From Streptomyces sp. NRRL S-87 (GTDB lineage Bacteria > Actinomycetota > Actinomycetes > Streptomycetales > Streptomycetaceae): a DNA stretch of 35,799 bases. The stretch is taken from contig NZ_JOGB01000070.1 of NCBI RefSeq assembly GCF_000719335.1, positions 1 through 35,799 on the forward strand, in the 5' to 3' direction. The notes under the pieces are model-generated. The model was not told where the DNA came from. It saw only the letters and a program-made list of their open reading frames with translations, and searched no databases. The number at the start of each line of letters is the position of its first letter. Positions within the stretch are counted from its first letter, which is position 1. A program made the position numbers and the translations under genes. Shown here piece after piece: positions 18,730 to 35,655 of the stretch.

Positions 18730-18730
<1 letters not shown>
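18717..18730 (-). terminator. Short hairpin at the end of katG
   Basis: ACCGG and CCGGT surround a four-base loop reading TTCG on the transcript strand, a stable tetraloop. It touches the last base of the katG stop codon. A longer-range GGGGCGTC/GACGCCCC pairing lies just downstream. Either could end katG transcription before cvnA; I see no strong classical terminator. Confidence 0.35.
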
Positions 18731-21036
<2,306 letters not shown>

Positions 21037-21046
<10 letters not shown>

Positions 21047-21064
21047 GGACATAATCTAAGTCAA
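21037..21064 (-). promoter_or_regulatory. Strong vegetative-type katG promoter
   Basis: On the minus strand, TTGACT (21064-21059), a 16-base spacer and TAGGAT (21042-21037) give a near-consensus housekeeping promoter. The predicted transcript would have a leader of about 100 bases. It sits in an unusually A/T-rich pocket for this DNA, which would suit a Fur-type operator. Confidence 0.7.
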
Positions 21065-21107
21065 GATGACAACCAGACCTGACCTGGTTGATGTTGTCTT
21101 GAGACGC
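21063..21107. promoter_or_regulatory. Interrupted inverted repeats between katG and fur, possible regulator site
   Basis: AACCAG and CTGGTT flank a short centre (about 21071-21089). Outside them, CAAGA..ACAAC on the left mirrors GTTGTCTTG on the right. The dyad lies downstream of the Fur gene's predicted promoter and upstream of the katG -35. It could be the autoregulatory operator, but I cannot match it to a known Fur box. Confidence 0.4.
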
Positions 21108-21125
21108 ACCGGGAGGTGGTGAGGC

Positions 21126-21545
21126 ATGAGCACACTGCTGGAACGGCTTCGTGGCCGGGGCTGGCGGATGACCGCCCAGCGCCGGGTGGTCGCCGAGGTC
21201 CTCAGCGGCGAGCACATCCACCTCACGGCGGACGAGGTCCTGGTCCGCGCGGCCGAGCGACTGCCGGAGATCTCCCGGGCGACGGTCTACAACACCCTCG
21301 GGGAGCTGGTCGCGCTCGGCGAGGTCACGGAGGTCGCCACCGACGGCCGCGCCAAGCGCTACGACCCGAACGCGCACCGCCCGCACCATCACCTGGTCTG
21401 CGGGGGCTGCGGAACCATCCGCGACGTCCAGCCCGACGGCGACCCGCTGGCCGCCCTCCCCGCCTCCGAACGCTTCGGCTTCACGGTCTCCGACGCCGAG
21501 GTCACCTACCGCGGCCTCTGCCCCGCCTGCGCGGCCGGGGCGTAG
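21126..21545 (+). CDS. Fur-family peroxide/metal-responsive repressor
   Basis: A 139-residue Fur-family regulator. The N-terminal winged helix includes RMTAQRRVVAEVLSG and the recognition helix ISRATVYNTLGELVALGEV. The C-terminal half has the metal-sensing HRPHHHLVCGGCG segment and two CxxC pairs (Cys92/95 and Cys132/135) that would hold a structural zinc. Divergence from katG suggests a peroxide sensor (FurA/FurS/CatR/PerR type) rather than an iron-uptake regulator. Which of these it matches cannot be settled here. GGAGG lies nine bases before the ATG at 21126. It probably represses katG and itself. Confidence 0.93.
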   Translation: MSTLLERLRGRGWRMTAQRRVVAEVLSGEHIHLTADEVLVRAAERLPEISRATVYNTLGELVALGEVTEVATDGRAKRYDPNAHRPHHHLVCGGCGTIRDVQPDGDPLAALPASERFGFTVSDAEVTYRGLCPACAAGA

Positions 21546-21569
21546 CGCCTTCGGGTGCCCCGGACATGC

Positions 21570-21607
21570 CGAAGGCGGCCGCCCCGGGGTCCGGGGGGCC
21601 GCCTTCG
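21570..21607. terminator. Bidirectional 11-bp hairpin between fur and msrB
   Basis: CGAAGGCGGCC (21570-21580) and GGCCGCCTTCG (21597-21607) form a perfect stem around a G/C-rich 16-base loop. It fills the 69-base gap between the convergent stops and can end transcripts from both sides. Confidence 0.85.
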
Positions 21608-21614
21608 CGTCGGC

Positions 21615-22022
21615 TCAGGCCTCGTCGGGCGTGAGGCGCAGGGAGATCGAGTTGATGCAGTAGCGCTGGTCCGTGGGGGTCGGGTAGCCCTCGCCCTCGA
21701 AGACGTGGCCCAGGTGCGAGCCGCAGCGGGCGCAGCGGACCTCGGTGCGGACCATGCCGTGCGAGGTGTCGGCGAGCAGCTCGACCGCGTCGGAGTCCTT
21801 CGGGTCGTAGAAGGACGGCCAGCCGCAGTGCGACTCGAACTTGGTGTCCGAGCGGAACAGCTCCGCACCGCAGGCGCGGCAGGAGTAGACACCCTCGGCC
21901 TTGGTGTCGGTGTACTCACCGCGGAAGGCCGGCTCGGTGCCGCCCAGGCGCAGCACCTGGTACTCGGACGGGGTGAGCTCGGCCTGCCACTGCTCGTCCG
22001 GCTTCTCGACCTCGTACGACAT
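21615..22022 (-). CDS. msrB: Peptide-methionine (R)-S-oxide reductase
   Basis: MsrB (135 residues) reduces the R-epimer of methionine sulfoxide in proteins. Visible features: zinc-binding Cys48/Cys51 (SCRACG) and Cys97/Cys100 (RCARCG), the GWPSF substrate motif, GSHLGHVF, and catalytic Cys122 in QRYCINSISL. Cys66 in SHCGWPS may be the resolving residue. The ATG at 22022 has GGGAG eight bases upstream; the frame continues upstream but into the end of murC. It begins 13 bases after murC on the same strand, so the two are almost certainly one operon. Its place near katG and Fur puts two oxidative-damage functions side by side. Confidence 0.96.
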   Translation of the reverse strand: MSYEVEKPDEQWQAELTPSEYQVLRLGGTEPAFRGEYTDTKAEGVYSCRACGAELFRSDTKFESHCGWPSFYDPKDSDAVELLADTSHGMVRTEVRCARCGSHLGHVFEGEGYPTPTDQRYCINSISLRLTPDEA

Positions 22023-22035
22023 GACGCGCGCTCCC

Positions 22036-23445
22036 TCAGTTCGACAGGCGGGCAAGGCCCTCGAGAATGACCGGGCCCAGGTCGGTCACGTCGCCCGCGC
22101 CCATGGTGAGAACGAGGTCGCCGGGCTTCGCCATTCCCGCCACGACCTCGGGTACCGAGGTGGCGTCGTGCTGGGCGGCGACGTCGGCACCCGCGGCCCG
22201 CGCCGCGTCGATGATGATCTCGCTGGTGACGCCGGGGACCGGGTCCTCGCGCGCCGGGTAGATGTCGAGGACCACGGAGGCGTCGGCGAGCGCGAGGGCC
22301 TGGCCCATCTCCTTGCCCAGTTCCTGGGTGCGGGAGAAGAGGTGCGGCTGGAAGACGACCAGGATCCGGGAGTCCCCGGCGGCGCCGCGGATGGCCTCCA
22401 TGTCGGCGGTCATCTCGGTGGGGTGGTGCGCGTACGAGTCGATGACCTGCACCCCCGCGGCCTCGCCCTTGAGCTGGAGGCGGCGCTTGACGCCGGTGTA
22501 CTTGCCGAGCGCGGCGGCCAGGTCGTCGGCGGGGACGCCCAGGGCGACGCCGGCGGCGAGGGCCGCGACGGCGTTGTGCGCGTAGTGGCGGCCGGGCACG
22601 GAGACCGTGAAGGTCAGCTCCCGCCCGTCGAGCAGGACGGTGACCTCGCTGGTCAGGCCGCGCGGGACGACGCGGGTGACGCGGACGTCGGCGCCCTCGG
22701 ACTCGCCGTAGGTGACCACGTTCAGGCCGGCGCGCGCGCCGACGCGGGCGGTCAGCTCGACGGCGCCCTCCTGGTCGGCGGAGACGACCAGGGTGCCGCC
22801 CTCGACGACCTTGCCGACGAAGGTCACGAAGGACTCGTGGATCTCGTCCATCGAGGCGTAGTTCGCGTGGTGGTCGAGCTCGGCGTTGAGGACGATCGCG
22901 ACCTCGGGCGCGTACTTGTGGAAGCTGCGGTCGCTTTCGTCCGCCTCCGCCACGAAGATCTCGCCGGTGCCGTGGTGGGCGTTGGAGCCGGGCGCGTCGA
23001 GGTCGCCGCCGATCGCGTACGAGGGGTCCAGGCCCAGCGCGCCGAGCGAGACGGCCAGCATCGAGGTGGTGGTGGTCTTGCCGTGGGTACCGGCGACCGC
23101 GATCGGGCGCAGGCCGTCCATGAGGGAGGCGAGCGCGTCGGAGCGGTGCACGACGGGGATGCCGAGCTCGGCGGCGCGGGCCAGCTCGGGGTTGTCGGCG
23201 CGGATGGCGCTGGAGACGACGACGCAGCTGGCGTCCTCGGCGAGGTGACCGGCGGCGTGGCCGATGTGGACCGTGGCGCCCTGGGCGCGCAGCGCCGCCG
23301 CGGTCCCGGACTCACGGGCGTCGCTGCCGGCCACCCGGGCGCCGCGCTGGGCGAGGATCTTCGCGATGCCGGACATCCCGGCGCCGCCGATGCCGATGAA
23401 GTGGGGCCGTTCCATGGCGGTCGGCAGGCCGGGCGACGGCGTCAT
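22036..23445 (-). CDS. murC: UDP-N-acetylmuramate--L-alanine ligase
   Basis: MurC (469 residues, normal length) adds L-alanine to UDP-MurNAc in the cytosol, the first amino-acid step of peptidoglycan synthesis. The N-terminal Rossmann part shows HFIGIGGAGMSGIAKIL; the ATP-binding loop is VAGTHGKTTTTSM. The central domain has EADESDRSF and LNAELDHHANY. The C-terminal ligase domain begins GVKRRLQLKGE and includes IDSYAHHPTEM and VFQPHLFSRTQ, all MurC signatures. The ATG at 23445 has GGGAG seven bases upstream. It is apart from the usual division and cell-wall (dcw) genes, as I recall for Streptomyces, and is followed by msrB. Confidence 0.97.
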   Translation of the reverse strand: MTPSPGLPTAMERPHFIGIGGAGMSGIAKILAQRGARVAGSDARESGTAAALRAQGATVHIGHAAGHLAEDASCVVVSSAIRADNPELARAAELGIPVVHRSDALASLMDGLRPIAVAGTHGKTTTTSMLAVSLGALGLDPSYAIGGDLDAPGSNAHHGTGEIFVAEADESDRSFHKYAPEVAIVLNAELDHHANYASMDEIHESFVTFVGKVVEGGTLVVSADQEGAVELTARVGARAGLNVVTYGESEGADVRVTRVVPRGLTSEVTVLLDGRELTFTVSVPGRHYAHNAVAALAAGVALGVPADDLAAALGKYTGVKRRLQLKGEAAGVQVIDSYAHHPTEMTADMEAIRGAAGDSRILVVFQPHLFSRTQELGKEMGQALALADASVVLDIYPAREDPVPGVTSEIIIDAARAAGADVAAQHDATSVPEVVAGMAKPGDLVLTMGAGDVTDLGPVILEGLARLSN

Positions 23446-29467: not shown

Positions 29468-30145
29468 TCAGTGACCGGCCTTGATCACCGGCACGTGCTC
29501 GCTCGGACGGACGATGACGAAGCCCTCGCCCTGGAGCATCAGCTGCACGGCCTCGCCGGAGCCGCCGCGCAGCATCGAGCCGATGGACTGCGAGCGGTGC
29601 AGCGACGTGTCGAGGTGCGCGCTCCAGCCGACCACCGCGTCGGTGTCCACGTACACGGGGTACTGCGGCGAGACCGGTATGACGATCGGGTTGCCCTCGC
29701 AGATGACGGCCAGCTTTCCGTGGCCCGTGAAGAGGCTGTTGAACAGACCGCCGCCGGCCATGCCGGCGCCCTTCACCATCTTGATCTCGTACGACAGCGT
29801 GGGGTCGAAGCACAGGACGTTGCGGCCGTTGACGGTGAGCGCGTCGCCCTGCTCGATCTCGACGATGAAGCAGTTGGCCGCCTCGTGCGCGAACCAGGCC
29901 TCGCCCTGACCGCGGACGGACATCAGGGCCAGGCCCTCGCCGGTGACGGCGCGCTTGAGCATGCCGCCGATGCCCTGGCCCTTGCGCTCGAACTGCAGGT
30001 TGCCGCGGAAGGCGATCATGGAGCCCTGTCGGGCCAGCATCTCCCCGTTGACGGCGTACTTGACGGACTTGGCGTTCTGCAGGGTCATACCGGGTGCGGT
30101 GGCCTGCTGTGCCATGTTCTCTGAGGCAAAGAGATCGCTCTTCAT
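29468..30145 (-). CDS. AIM24 family protein
   Basis: A 225-residue member of the AIM24/TIGR00266 family, whose bacterial members are soluble beta-rich proteins of unknown biochemical role (the yeast namesake is mitochondrial). Visible features: KYAVNGEMLARQGSMIAFRG, GEAWFAHEAANCFIVEIEQGD, then LTVNGRNVLCFDPTLSYEI and the glycine-rich GAGMAGGGLFNSLFTGHGKLAVICEG, which is very typical of the family. The ATG at 30145 is used; a GTG at 30160 is in frame and adds five residues. Neither has a strong ribosome-binding site. It is divergent from the Pth2-like gene with an 85-base gap. Confidence 0.88.
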   Translation of the reverse strand: MKSDLFASENMAQQATAPGMTLQNAKSVKYAVNGEMLARQGSMIAFRGNLQFERKGQGIGGMLKRAVTGEGLALMSVRGQGEAWFAHEAANCFIVEIEQGDALTVNGRNVLCFDPTLSYEIKMVKGAGMAGGGLFNSLFTGHGKLAVICEGNPIVIPVSPQYPVYVDTDAVVGWSAHLDTSLHRSQSIGSMLRGGSGEAVQLMLQGEGFVIVRPSEHVPVIKAGH

Positions 30146-30230
30146 GCGGCTGATCTTCACCCGTCCGAGGGAACCGGGACAACAGCCGGTGTGTCACAGG
30201 CTCGCAATACCGCCTGGCAGACTGGGTGGG

Positions 30231-30989
30231 ATGAGCAGCAGCGACCACGACCGCCCCGAGAGCACCACCCACCACACCGCGACCCCCGCCGTCGGCGCCG
30301 ACAGCCCGTTCCGGCCGGCCTCGGCCCGGGACGACGCACCGCAGTACGTCCTGCCGTTGGTGGTGCGCATCGAGAAGGCCGAACCCCCGGCCCGTACCGA
30401 CGCCCTGGAGACGGCGGCGCGCGCGGTGCTCGTCCTGCTCTCGGACGAGCGGGCGCTCGGCGACGGCGAGTGGGCGGCGACGGTGCGCGCCTGGCAGGAC
30501 GCCCGGATCCGCAAGGTCGTGCGGCGGGCGCGCGGCGCAGAGTGGCGCAAGGCGGCGACGCTGCCGGGCCTCACGGTGCACGGCGACGCGGCGGAGGTGC
30601 GGGTCTTCCCGCCGGTGCCGCTGGACGGCTGGCCCAAGGAGTTGGCCAAGCTCCAGGTCTCCGGTACCGAACTCGACGACCCGGGCCCGGTCGAGGCCCC
30701 CGGCAACGGTGTTCCGGTGCTCTGGCTGAGCCCGGAGCTGGAGATGTCGGCAGGCAAGGCGATGGCCCAGGTCGGGCACGGTGCCCAGCTGGCCTGGTGG
30801 GCCCTCGACGACGCGGCGCGCGCCGCGTGGCGGGCCGCGGACTTCCGCCTCGCCGTCCGCACCGCCACCCCCGCCCACTGGGCCCGCCTGACGACGGACG
30901 GCCTGCCGGTCGTCCGTGACGCGGGCTTCACGGAGATCGCCCCGAACAGCGCCACGGTCGTCGCCGACCACCCTGCCCTCTCCCGCTAG
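30231..30989 (+). CDS. Peptidyl-tRNA hydrolase 2-like protein with N-terminal extension
   Basis: A 252-residue protein. Residues about 160-245 resemble the Pth2 domain: LEMSAGKAMAQVGHGAQLAWW matches the family's 'M-x-x-G-K-x-A-x-Q-x-x-H' active-site helix, and a strand-helix-strand order follows. Pth2 frees tRNA from peptidyl-tRNA. The N-terminal ~135 residues (PQYVLPLVVRIEKAEPP, then helices rich in Arg) are unfamiliar, so the real substrate is uncertain. A Ser/His/Thr-rich lead of 35 residues is probably disordered. The ATG at 30231 is preceded by GGGTGGG rather than a clear Shine-Dalgarno sequence. Confidence 0.75.
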   Translation: MSSSDHDRPESTTHHTATPAVGADSPFRPASARDDAPQYVLPLVVRIEKAEPPARTDALETAARAVLVLLSDERALGDGEWAATVRAWQDARIRKVVRRARGAEWRKAATLPGLTVHGDAAEVRVFPPVPLDGWPKELAKLQVSGTELDDPGPVEAPGNGVPVLWLSPELEMSAGKAMAQVGHGAQLAWWALDDAARAAWRAADFRLAVRTATPAHWARLTTDGLPVVRDAGFTEIAPNSATVVADHPALSR

Positions 30990-31953: not shown

Positions 31954-33492
31954 ATGAAGCCCATGGCACGCCTGGGTGTGGGGATCGGCTGGCGGCCGGA
32001 GATCGCCGACGCGGTCGAACGGCTGCCGCGGCTCGACTGGGTCGAGGTCGTCGCCGAGAACCTGTGCCCCGGACACCTACCGGACGCCCTGCGCCGGCTG
32101 CGAGAACGCGGCACGGTCGTCGTCCCGCACGGCGTCTCGCTGGGCCTCGGCGGGGCCGACCGCCCCGACCCGGGCCGGCTGGCGGACCTGGCCGAGCGGG
32201 CGGTCGCCCTGGAGGCGCCGCTGGTGACGGAGCACATCGCGTTCGTGCGGGCGGGGGGCCCGCTGACCGCTTCGCCGCGACTGGAGGCCGGACACCTGCT
32301 GCCGGTGCCGCGCACCCGGGACGCCCTGGCGGTGCTGTGCGAGAACGTACGGATCGCGCAGGACGCGCTGCCGGTCCCCCTGGCCCTGGAGAACATCGCG
32401 GCCCTCTTCTCGTGGCCGGACGACGAGCTGACCGAGGGCCAGTTCCTGGCGGAACTGGTCGAGCGCACCGGGGTACGGCTCCTCATCGACGTCGCCAACC
32501 TGCACACGAACCGGGTGAACCGGGCCGAGGACCCCCTGGCCGTGCTCGACGCCCTGCCGCTGGAAGCGCTGGCGTACGTCCACGTGGCGGGCGGGATCGA
32601 GCGCGGCGGGGTGTGGCACGACACCCACGCGCACCCCGTGCCGCCGGAGGTGCTGGCGCTGCTCGGCGAGCTGCGGGCGCGCGTGGACCCGCCGGGGGTG
32701 CTGCTCGAGCGGGACGACGACTTCCCGCCGGAGCCGGAACTGGCCGCCGAGCTGGCCGCGATCCGCGGCGTCCTGACCGCCGAGGGGGCGCGGCCGACGC
32801 CGGACGCGGCCACCGACGGCCTCCGACCGGCCGACGGGGCGCGGGGCGGGCACCACGACGCGGAGGCCGTGCGTGGTCGGGTGGCGGTCGCGCAGACCGC
32901 CGTGCTGTCCGCGCTCGTCGCCGGGACGCCCGTGCCCGAGGGCTTCGACGCGCCGCGCATGCGCGTGCAGGCCCGGGCGCTCGCCGCCAAGCGGGCCGAC
33001 GTCGTGGCCAAGGTGGCGCCCGACCTGCCGCGCATCCTCGGCGCGGAAGCGTACCGGCAGGCCTTCCTCGGCTACGCGAGGACCCGTCCCATGACGGCCG
33101 GTTACCGGCGCGACGCCCTCGACTTCGCCGAGCACCTGCTGCTCACCGACGGGATCGGCGACGGACTCGCCCGGCGCCGGCTCACCGCCTGGTGGCGTGA
33201 CCGCGCGGGCTCCAAACCCCCCGGTCGGCTCACCCGGCTCGCGCACCGCCTGGTGCCGCCGCCCCGCCCGCGGGGCCGCCGCGCCCGCGCCCGCCTCGCG
33301 GCCCACCCGGGCACCACTACGACCCGCCCGGTCACTGCCACGGACCGCCCGGCCGCCGCCGCGACGGACCACCCGGCCGCCGCCGCGGCGGCCAAGGCAG
33401 TCCCGGCCGCCGCCGCGGCGGCCAAGGCAGTCCCGGCAGTCCCGGCAGTCCTGGCAGTCCCGGCAAGATCAGTGAAGGAGACGGCATCGTGA
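31954..33492 (+). CDS. DUF692 / multinuclear non-heme iron oxidase (MNIO) with fused C-terminal domain
   Basis: A 512-residue protein. Residues 5-275 form the DUF692 TIM barrel with nearly all landmark residues of MNIO enzymes: His59 ([10 protein letters not shown]), His94 (TEHIAF), Glu146 (ALENIAALF), Asp179/Asn182 ([11 protein letters not shown]), His210 (YVHVAGG), Asp223/His225/His227 (DTHAHPV) and Glu252 (LLERDDDF). Characterised relatives (MbnB, TglH) use two or three irons to oxidise residues, mainly cysteine, in ribosomal peptides. The usual IHLAGH reads VHVAGG here. Residues about 300-405 form a second helical domain, possibly the substrate-recognition partner that is separate elsewhere. 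The tail (410-512) is basic, then Ala/Pro repeats. GGAGG lies seven bases before the ATG; the stop overlaps the next start (GTGA). Xylose-isomerase-like activity is the less likely alternative. Confidence 0.9.
33372..33467. repeat. Nested in-frame repeats (30 bp x2, 9 bp x4) in the MNIO gene tail
   Basis: Two exact 30-base units (33372-33401, 33402-33431) encode an Ala-Lys-Ala-Val-Pro pattern. Four 9-base units of the CCCGGCAGT type follow (33432-33467), encoding mostly Pro-Ala-Val. The exact DNA identity suggests recent slippage; this tail is probably a dispensable linker. Confidence 0.85.
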
Positions 33493-34595
33493 ACTACTTC
33501 GCCCTCATCGTCTGGGTCGGAGTCGTCGCCTCCACCCTCGGCCTCGCCGTCGGCGTGTACCGCTCCCGCCGTGCGGGCGGGGCCGGAGCCACCGTGCACG
33601 ACCTGACCGAGGCGGCCTTCCTCGCCGGCGGCCCGCGCCGGGTCGTGGACACCGCCCTCGTCGCGCTCTGCCAGGACGGCCGCATGATGATCGGCGGCCC
33701 CGGCATCGTGCAGGTCCGCTCCGGCGCCCGGGCCGCCGACCCCGTCGAGCGGGCCGTGCTGGCGGCGCACGAGGCGGCGCCCAGCGGCGCGCTCCAGTGG
33801 CTGCGGCTCGCCGTCATGCGCGACGCGGCCGTCCAGGAGACCGGGGACGGCCTGGCCGCGCGCGGCCTGCTCTCCGCCCCCGGCGCGGGTGCCGCCCTGC
33901 GCCGCTGGGGCCTGGTCCAGGCGGTGGTGTGCCTGCTGCTGGTGCCCTCCGCGTTCGTGCTGACGGTCGTCCAGTGGGCGGCCGCGACGCATGAGTACGA
34001 CTTCGACGTGCCGCTCTTCCTGCTCGCCGTACCCGCGCTGTTCCTCGGCCTGATCGCCGGCCTCGTCCTGCGGGCGGTGGCCGGGCGCCGGGTCACCGCC
34101 GCGGGCAAGGCGGCCCTGGCCTCGTACCGCGCCACCCACCTCGCCTCGGGCGACCTCAGCGTGCTGACGGCCCTGCAGGGCCCCCGGGCCCTGCCCGACC
34201 CGCTGCTGCGCAGCCAGCTCCTGATGCTCGTCCCCGGTGCGGCCGGCCGGCCGCGGGGCCACGCCGGCTCGTCCTCCTCGCGTGCGCACGGCAGCCACGG
34301 CACGCACGATTCCGGCAGCGCCTTCGAGACTCCTGTGATGTGGTGCGCGAGCCCGGACACCGGGAGCGGTGGGGGCGGCGGCGACTGGTCGGGCTGCGGC
34401 TCGTCCCGGAGCGGTTGCGGTTCTTCGGGCAGCAGTTGCGGGTCCTCCAGCAGTGGTTGCGGGTCCTCGGGGTCCTCGGGTTCCTCGTGTGGTTCGTCCG
34501 GCAGCAGTTGCGGATCCTCGTCGTCCAGTTGCTCGTCGAGCAGCTCGAGTTGTGGCAGTTCTTCCAGTTCGAGTTGCGGAAGCAGCAGTTCCTGA
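33489..34595 (+). CDS. TIGR04222-like membrane protein with a cysteine-heptad Ser/Gly tail; candidate MNIO substrate
   Basis: A 368-residue protein. Transmembrane helix 1 is at 4-24, followed by RSRR. A cytosolic TIGR04222-type domain (about 35-135; [22 protein letters not shown]) follows. Helices at about 141-163 and 174-194 enclose a short acidic outside loop, then RR and a second cytosolic stretch. From about residue 285 the tail is Ser/Gly/Cys only, with Cys at 286, 303, 310, 317, 324, 334, 341, 348, 355 and 363; six of the eight gaps from 303 onward are exactly seven. The GTG start has AAGGAG eight bases upstream and overlaps the MNIO stop. By the positive-inside rule the tail is cytosolic, reachable by the MNIO enzyme. 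From memory, TIGR04222 proteins commonly adjoin DUF692 genes. Being an MNIO substrate is inference. Confidence 0.85.
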
Positions 34596-34674: not shown

Positions 34675-35655
34675 ATGTTCTGGGTCCTGTTCCTGCTGCC
34701 GGCGTGGGCCGGGGCGCTGTTCTCCTGCGGGCGGCTGGTGGCCGCCGCCACGGCGGCGGCCGGTCCGGAGAGGTCCGATCCGGAGAGGTCCGGTCCGGAG
34801 AGGTCCGGTCCGGAGGGGTCCGGTGCCCCACTGTCCGGCCGCGGTGAACTGCCTGATGCCGGCGAACTGAGCCTCTACGAAGCGGCCTACCTGGCCGGGG
34901 GCCCGCAACGGGTGGTCGTGCTGACGCTGCTGTCCATGCAGCGCCAGGGACGGCTGCTCCTGGCCCGCAGCGGGTGGGCGACCGTGGTCGACCCGGTGGC
35001 CCGGGACGAGCTGGAGCGCTGCGTACTGGGGGCGTTCGGGCCGGACGGGCAGTCGCCGGTGGCGCAGATACGGTCGGCCGCGGCCGCGGGCACGGCGGTA
35101 CGGGACCTCGCCCACCGGCTCGCCCGGGCGGGGCTCGCGGTCCCGGAGCGGGAGCGGCTGGGCATGGACGAGGCGGTGCGGGGCGTGAAGGCGGCCAGCG
35201 CGCTGATCGCCGTCCTCGGGGCCGCGGCGGTGCTGCTGCCGCAGGCCGGCGAGGACCGGACTCTGATCGGGTGGTGGTTCGCGCTGCCACTCGTGCTGAC
35301 GCTGAGCTGCCTGGGCGTGGCCCGCTTCGAGTCGCACCCGTACTCGCCCTGGGCGTCGCCGGCCGGCCAGCAGCTGCTCGTCCGGCTCGATGACGAGTGG
35401 CGGGGTGGGGACGGGGATGGGGATGGGGACGGGGATCGGTATCGGGGTCGGGATGCGGTTGGTGGGGGGCGGGGAAGGGTTCGGGGGTTGGCGTTGGGGC
35501 TGGGGCTGGGGTTGGGGTGGGGGCTGGGGGACGCTGACGACCGGGCCCTTCTGGCGGCCGTGGCGGTGCGGGGCCTGGCTGCGGTGAAGGACCCGGATCT
35601 CAGGGCCGCCCTGTGCGGTGAGCGCGGGAGCGTGCCTGCCCAGCGGCGGCTGTGA
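34675..35655 (+). CDS. Second TIGR04222-like membrane protein, no cysteine array
   Basis: A 326-residue paralogue of the preceding protein. LSLYEAAYLAGGPQRVVVLTLLSMQRQGRLLL aligns with the TIGR04222 core next door. Hydrophobic helices lie at about 1-25, 170-185 and 198-217. A four-unit PERSG repeat follows helix 1. The C-terminal domain is split by a ~43-residue insertion (about 243-285) of Gly-Asp then Leu-Gly repeats, after which DDRALLAAVAVRGLAAVKDPDLRAAL resumes the alignment. Only four scattered cysteines are present and there is no Ser/Cys tail. The ATG at 34675 lacks a Shine-Dalgarno sequence and is 79 bases after the previous gene. It may form a membrane complex with the first protein. 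Confidence 0.82.
   Translation: MFWVLFLLPAWAGALFSCGRLVAAATAAAGPERSDPERSGPERSGPEGSGAPLSGRGELPDAGELSLYEAAYLAGGPQRVVVLTLLSMQRQGRLLLARSGWATVVDPVARDELERCVLGAFGPDGQSPVAQIRSAAAAGTAVRDLAHRLARAGLAVPERERLGMDEAVRGVKAASALIAVLGAAAVLLPQAGEDRTLIGWWFALPLVLTLSCLGVARFESHPYSPWASPAGQQLLVRLDDEWRGGDGDGDGDGDRYRGRDAVGGGRGRVRGLALGLGLGLGWGLGDADDRALLAAVAVRGLAAVKDPDLRAALCGERGSVPAQRRL
34762..34821. repeat. 15-bp in-frame tandem repeat, four copies
   Basis: The unit GGTCCGGAGAGGTCC, with single-base variants, begins at 34762, 34777, 34792 and 34807. It encodes GPERS-type pentapeptides between the first membrane helix and the TIGR04222 core. Confidence 0.9.
35401..35529. repeat. Simple (GGGGAT)n and (GGGGCT)n hexamer runs inside the second TIGR04222 gene
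   Basis: G-rich hexamer runs encode the Gly-Asp and then Leu-Gly insertion. The coding strand has many G-tracts of four or more, so G-quadruplex formation is possible. The frame survives because the units are multiples of three. Confidence 0.8.

Follow-up and report, generated by a model that had tools for sequence, protein, structure and literature searches.

In a stretch of 35,799 nucleotides from Streptomyces sp. NRRL S-87 (contig NZ_JOGB01000070.1; hereafter, the window), the gene of a DUF692 enzyme (MNIO) overlaps that of a membrane protein ending in a repetitive Cys-rich tail. This raised the question of whether the tail is the substrate of the enzyme, what it would be converted into, and on which side of the membrane. 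We consider it rather probable that one gene of the pair encodes a modifying enzyme and the other its protein substrate, tethered to the membrane, in which the Cys residues of a cytosolic tail would be oxidized, most likely to 5-thiooxazole, to give a metal-buffering or redox polymer. The features of the locus are listed in Table 1.

MNIO-associated TIGR04222 proteins with Ser/Gly/Cys tails were described as likely substrates by Antoine et al. in 2025 (PMC12452194). As far as the available part of that survey goes, both the MNIO/TIGR04222 pairing and the reading of the tail as substrate are thus already published. In the literature covered, there was no account of a fused partner, a cytosolic tail or an exchange of carriers, all of which are described below.

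Table 1. Coordinates of the features discussed, as positions in the window
Feature	Position	Strand	Details
AIM24 family gene	29468-30160	-	PF01987
PTH2 (peptidyl-tRNA hydrolase type) gene, upstream of MNIO	29943..30989	+	PF01981, E 1.5e-6; start provisional; compare adjamnio-II, for which the available text of PMC12452194 names PF01195
MNIO (DUF692) gene	31954..33492	+	ORF of 512 aa; ATG at 31954, second ATG at 31963
MNIO TIM-barrel domain	31975..32772	+	
C-terminal partner (PME-like) domain fused to MNIO	32866..33240	+	All-helical in model; homologous to separate genes adjoining unfused MNIOs
Ala/Pro-rich low-complexity end of MNIO ORF	33259..33492	+	Short tandem repeats
TIGR04222 membrane protein with Cys tail	33489..34595	+	368 aa, GTG start; overlaps the MNIO stop by GTGA
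TM helix 1, residues 2-28	33492..33572	+	N-terminus predicted outside
Soluble domain, residues 39-125	33603..33863	+	Predicted cytosolic; related to DUF2207_C
TM helices 2 and 3, residues 135-165 and 176-198	33891..34082	+	Acidic loop between them, predicted outside
W-C-A motif preceding the tail	34341..34349	+	W285 and C286 in 58/58 relatives
Ser/Gly tail	34395..34592	+	Nine Cys, 6-10-residue spacing; candidate substrate
Second TIGR04222 gene, lacking a Cys tail	34675..35655	+	122.6 bits

The enzyme is a DUF692 barrel fused to a partner domain

The DUF692 barrel with His/Asp/Glu/Asn motifs reported in the preliminary description was confirmed. Pfam PF05114 matched residues 8-273 of the ORF with 261 bits, above its cut-off, and H53, H88, E140, D173, N176, H204, D217, H219, E246 and D248 (domain numbering), which we take to be metal ligands, were kept in 158/158 aligned MNIO rows. 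A fold search with residues 2-278, i.e., the barrel without the partner domain, returned TglH and MbnB as matches. Against the BufB profile NF050167 the protein reached 180.6 bits of the 310 required by the equivalog cut-off, and it is not assigned as a BufB bufferin maturase. The window MNIO has an E-x-D motif at 249/251 in which D251 is invariant, and we infer that this residue corresponds to Asp249 of the fontiphorin enzyme, the proposed catalytic base in the available part of PMC13097082. The genome holds one PF05114 match and two TIGR04222 matches, all inside the window.

Past the barrel, the C-terminal half of the MNIO contains a further domain, which the preliminary description had overlooked. 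It covers residues ~305-430 and is helical, with pLDDT mostly >90 for residues 301-410 in the AF2 model; residues 447-509, in the low-complexity end, have <50. A profile built from the fused Streptomyces domains only retrieved separate ORFs beside unfused MNIOs of other genera (E 9e-14, 8e-13, 3e-12 and 2e-9). In the class sample of 344 genomes, the domain was found in the fetched loci of 80/86 MNIO genomes; those of G310, G472, G477, G490, G523 and G529 lacked it, and G472 and G529 had true DUF2063 proteins. Among 90 loci with an MNIO of >150 bits, the partner was fused in 41, separate in 41 and absent in 8, and it was present, fused or separate, in 57/57 loci combining a full-length MNIO (>150 bits) with a local Cys tail. 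A separate partner was seen in four Streptomyces loci, L081, L084, L090 and L092.

The relation of this domain to DUF2063 (PF09836) is colinear and weak. The window domain scored 20.5 bits (E 6e-4), under the cut-off of 27.2, and does not class as PME-type 1; 4/20 partner-domain members matched DUF2063 at E up to 1. Alignment of partner and DUF2063 with hhalign gave E 0.002-0.005 at a probability of only 7-13%; the score was 23.8, and 60 shuffles went no higher than 16.6. PME-type 2 partners have a gene next to the MNIO and resemble DUF2063 remotely, lacking its signature; with its place beside or within the MNIO gene, the domain may be of this type. No MNIO partner emerged when PDB sequences were searched with the partner profile, the best match being an NTF2-like protein (E 0.11). 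According to the available text of PMC12452194, many MNIO-TIGR04222 clusters have no partner gene and PME-type 2 proteins occur in at least 10%; no mention of an MNIO-partner fusion was found in the passages of that text covered here. A fused partner would answer a point left open by the 2025 survey, namely how TIGR04222 clusters lacking a partner gene could work.

The membrane protein ends in a tail of Cys-Gly sites

The Cys-tailed protein scored 138.4 bits against NCBIfam TIGR04222 (cut-off 43) and belongs to this family. The GTGA overlap with the MNIO ORF is present (33489-33492), and the ten Cys lie exactly where they had been described, at 286, 303, 310, 317, 324, 334, 341, 348, 355 and 363. 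All ten fall in the last 83 residues, whereas residues 1-285 have 2 Cys (binomial P 4e-10, using the body frequency). The spacings from Cys303 are 7, 7, 7, 10, 7, 7, 7 and 8, and 0/20,000 random placements reached six spacings of 7; a degenerate 21-bp DNA repeat underlies part of the tail. The heptad spacing pointed out previously is therefore real in the window protein and beyond chance, but it is not conserved. In 58 aligned relatives the spacings are mostly 6-10 (8, 7, 6 and 10 being the commonest) and, hence, no heptad structure is implied.

What the 58 relatives do share is W285-C286, C303 and C355, all invariant, and the W-C-A motif may act as a recognition site. The residue after Cys in the window tail is Gly eight times, Ala once and Ser once (10/10 Gly/Ala/Ser), and Cys-Gly accounts for 244/288 tail Cys among the 15 commonest contexts. 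By sequence, the tail is a disordered Ser/Gly chain rich in Cys-Gly sites. The tail-less TIGR04222 gene that follows had also escaped the preliminary description.

Cys tails and MNIO genes covary across genomes

The survey of DUF692 and Cys-tailed TIGR04222 genes proposed in the preliminary description was carried out on the 344-genome class sample, with up to 8 TIGR04222 candidates scored per genome. MNIO was present in 86/344 genomes and TIGR04222 (E up to 1e-9) in 97/344. All 53 genomes with a Cys-tailed TIGR04222 had an MNIO, which in one of them (G350) was a contig-edge fragment and in the other 52 was not. The 44 TIGR04222 genomes lacking a Cys tail, including G582, whose match was counted as such with its sequence not inspected, comprised 19 with MNIO and 25 without. 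Thus, co-occurrence was 53/53 (one MNIO fragment), versus a Cys tail in 0/25 of the MNIO-less TIGR04222 genomes (Fisher 2.7e-10, kinship ignored). Both states, Cys tail and none, were found inside families f1, f3, f78 and f86, and in some MNIO-less genomes the TIGR04222 tails were Gly/Ser/Asp-rich with no Cys. Many of the proteins from MNIO-less genomes have low TIGR04222 scores and could represent other subfamilies, so that in part subfamilies are being compared.

The same tail occurs on other carriers

In 10/90 loci (MNIO >150 bits), a Cys tail was found near the MNIO on an ORF other than TIGR04222. These carriers are unrelated proteins, and their tails adjoin MNIO and partner. Eight of the ten carriers have 83-119 residues, counted from the nearest upstream Met, and one hydrophobic helix. 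Longer carriers with no Pfam match, ending in a similar Cys/Gly tail, were seen in L125 and L265. The one-helix mini-carriers might be the very small adjamnio-V proteins of PMC12452194, as these appear in its available part.

We put forward tentatively, at somewhat less than even confidence, that the conserved unit is the tail rather than its carrier. In this proposal, MNIO and its dedicated partner (frequently fused in Streptomyces and part of a Frankia-type family) would act on a portable Cys-Gly tag. Carriers anchored in the membrane, namely TIGR04222 proteins, one-helix mini-proteins and one or more further kinds, would have their Cys-Gly tails turned into an array of thiooxazole-type metal ligands that is membrane-bound and faces the cytosol. 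If true, one type of tail would be movable between proteins.

The tail is predicted to face the cytosol

We have counted charges in 110 of 120 Streptomyces relatives, namely those with three predicted helices of which the first is near the start. Mean K+R was 0 before TM1, 3.3 after TM1, 3.4 before TM2, 0.15 in the TM2-TM3 loop (which has 2.2 Asp+Glu) and 4.0 after TM3. This distribution predicts an N-out protein with the soluble domain and the tail in the cytosol. The first hydrophobic segment of the TIGR04222 protein has no N-terminal positive charge, and the AF2 model shows three long helices; such a three-helix anchor fits the earlier suggestion that the product stays on the membrane. In the one-helix carriers, K+R amounted to 0-1 ahead of the helix and 2-7 behind it (8/8). 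Moreover, TIGR04222 matches the C-terminal module of two DUF2207 proteins (E 3.6e-9 and 2.2e-7), which likewise end in Gly/Ser tails; they differ in that their tails contain no Cys and that a DUF2207 N-terminal domain is added. This added domain is presumably exported, and the homology agrees with an N-out TIGR04222 protein.

The cytosolic placement predicted for the Streptomyces tail goes against the published one, since Antoine et al. put the tail of their modelled TIGR04222 proteins in the periplasm (available part of PMC12452194). A modified tail outside the cell could be accommodated by a fourth hydrophobic segment, which we saw in 13/28 inspected, mostly non-Streptomyces, TIGR04222 proteins. 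However, the segment of the window protein aligned with it is modelled by AF2 as a short confident helix (223-230) and not as a membrane helix, and both the Streptomyces charge pattern and the positive charge behind the helix of all eight one-helix carriers are contrary to it. We regard a periplasmic tail as quite unlikely here.

Part of the close loci keep the enzyme and lack the tail

Loci with an intact DUF692 gene and no Cys tail, which the preliminary description had named as evidence against its proposal, do exist. Among the 80 matches listed closest to the query, 79 of them titled Streptomyces, a TIGR04222 with Cys tail was present in 49 loci, while 26 had just the tail-less form and 5 had no TIGR04222 gene; in 8 of these 31 tail-less loci, <1.2 kb of contig followed the match. 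The claim that the tail is the MNIO substrate is thus backed by the covariation and by the similar tails on other carriers (10 loci), but is weakened by the 31/80 listed close loci with MNIO and no local Cys tail.

The tree of 158 MNIO rows gave the same picture, bearing in mind that its "noCys" label counts TIGR04222 tails only and that several Frankia-type rows so labeled carry the tail on another carrier. One clade of 40 held 39 of the 62 rows lacking a Cys-tailed TIGR04222, and the label needed 16 changes versus 49 in shuffles. The conserved residues given above were kept in 51/51 fused rows lacking a Cys-tailed TIGR04222. Since the tail-less Streptomyces clade keeps MNIO, partner and conserved residues, the enzyme must have a use that does not involve the Cys tail. 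The search of the 31 tail-less loci for another Cys-rich substrate yielded just a zinc-ribbon-like small ORF (17 loci) and apparent wrong-frame ORFs. This clade offers a natural contrast for finding another substrate.

These loci bear on two further explanations. The enzyme could act mainly on a different substrate from the same locus (the TIGR04222 protein without tail, a DUF4142 protein, or a non-Cys residue), with the Cys tail as a lineage-specific extra. The conserved catalytic-type residues of the tail-less rows are compatible with this, as are the listed loci with MNIO and only a tail-less TIGR04222, 13/26 of which have a DUF4142-like gene nearby; in L058, L075, L085 and similar Streptomyces loci the DUF4142 gene sits between the two. 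Yet no conserved Cys-rich short ORF other than the zinc-ribbon-like one emerged from the 31 loci, some of which are cut by contig ends, and we deem this explanation quite unlikely. The tail could also stay unmodified, as a thiol ligand of metal or a chain of disulfides, with MNIO acting on something else in the cell. The large Streptomyces clade with MNIO and partner but no local Cys tail would fit, whereas Cys tails were never seen in a genome of the class sample lacking MNIO, and those on other carriers adjoin MNIO as well, which makes an unmodified tail unlikely. The degenerate DNA repeat under part of the tail and the drift of its spacing among relatives might even suggest a functionless low-complexity expansion. 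The strict covariation with MNIO, the invariance of C303 and C355 and the reuse of the tail on other carriers render this extremely improbable.

A membrane-bound polymer of oxidized Cys is the favored product

We favor the reading in which the repetitive Cys-rich tail is probably modified chemically by the MNIO, the fused enzyme most likely oxidizing its Cys-Gly sites to thiooxazole-type groups by analogy with the captophorins. The three-helix anchor would leave the tail in the cytosol, the partner domain would hold the substrate, and the fused MNIO would oxidize the tail Cys one after another. The products would most likely be 5-thiooxazoles, as in bufferin, oxazolin and fontiphorin. The result would be a membrane-bound polymer of soft-metal ligands at the inner membrane face, which may buffer copper or another metal, or be redox-active. 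Against this reading count the BufB score of the enzyme, the weak tie of its partner to DUF2063 and the immediate surroundings of the gene pair, where neither a metal gene nor a regulator was seen. If true, MNIO enzymes would produce a metal-binding or redox polymer that stays fixed on the membrane and faces inward, not a released peptide.

In the available part of PMC13097082, fontiphorin has seven 5-thiooxazoles, and in double variants with its enzyme all tested residues after Cys were blocking except Gly and Ala, a natural variant providing one Cys-Tyr exception. The captophorins bufferin 1, oxazolin and fontiphorin (same source) resemble the window system in combining an MNIO and a partner on repeated Cys, with small residues preferred after Cys; they differ in having Sec signal peptides and DUF2063-RRE partners, whereas in the window the anchor has three helices and the partner stays under the DUF2063 cut-off. 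In the TglH/TglI and MbnB/MbnC systems, the precursors are small peptides and the partner is a protein of its own. The TIGR04222 proteins of Antoine et al. (available text of PMC12452194) share the enzyme family, the membrane domain, the Ser/Gly Cys tail and the order peptidyl-tRNA hydrolase - MNIO - TIGR04222, there called adjamnio-II; theirs have a periplasmic tail and many lack a partner gene, whereas the window has a fused partner and a tail that is cytosolic by charge.

The DUF692 gene of S. coelicolor is presumably SCO6045. This gene was up 3.0-fold under 0.15 mM H2O2 (available part of PMC4991794), which may point to a connection with oxidative stress.

Neighboring genes

Genes for a peroxidase (KatG-like), a FUR-family regulator and SelR (MsrB) lie at 18730-22055, an oxidative-stress neighborhood within ~13 kb of the MNIO. 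AIM24 was found near the MNIO in 36/49 loci with a Cys tail versus 3/31 without (80 listed), which may only reflect kinship. In many Streptomyces loci, hemQ-like and protoporphyrinogen oxidase-like genes were seen by eye ~4 kb downstream of the MNIO on the opposite strand. Three other Actinomycetes loci (L253, L254 and L255) combine a bufferin-like MNIO with a true DUF2063 partner; upstream lies the gene of a Cys-rich protein, and a larger gene that is conserved follows downstream.
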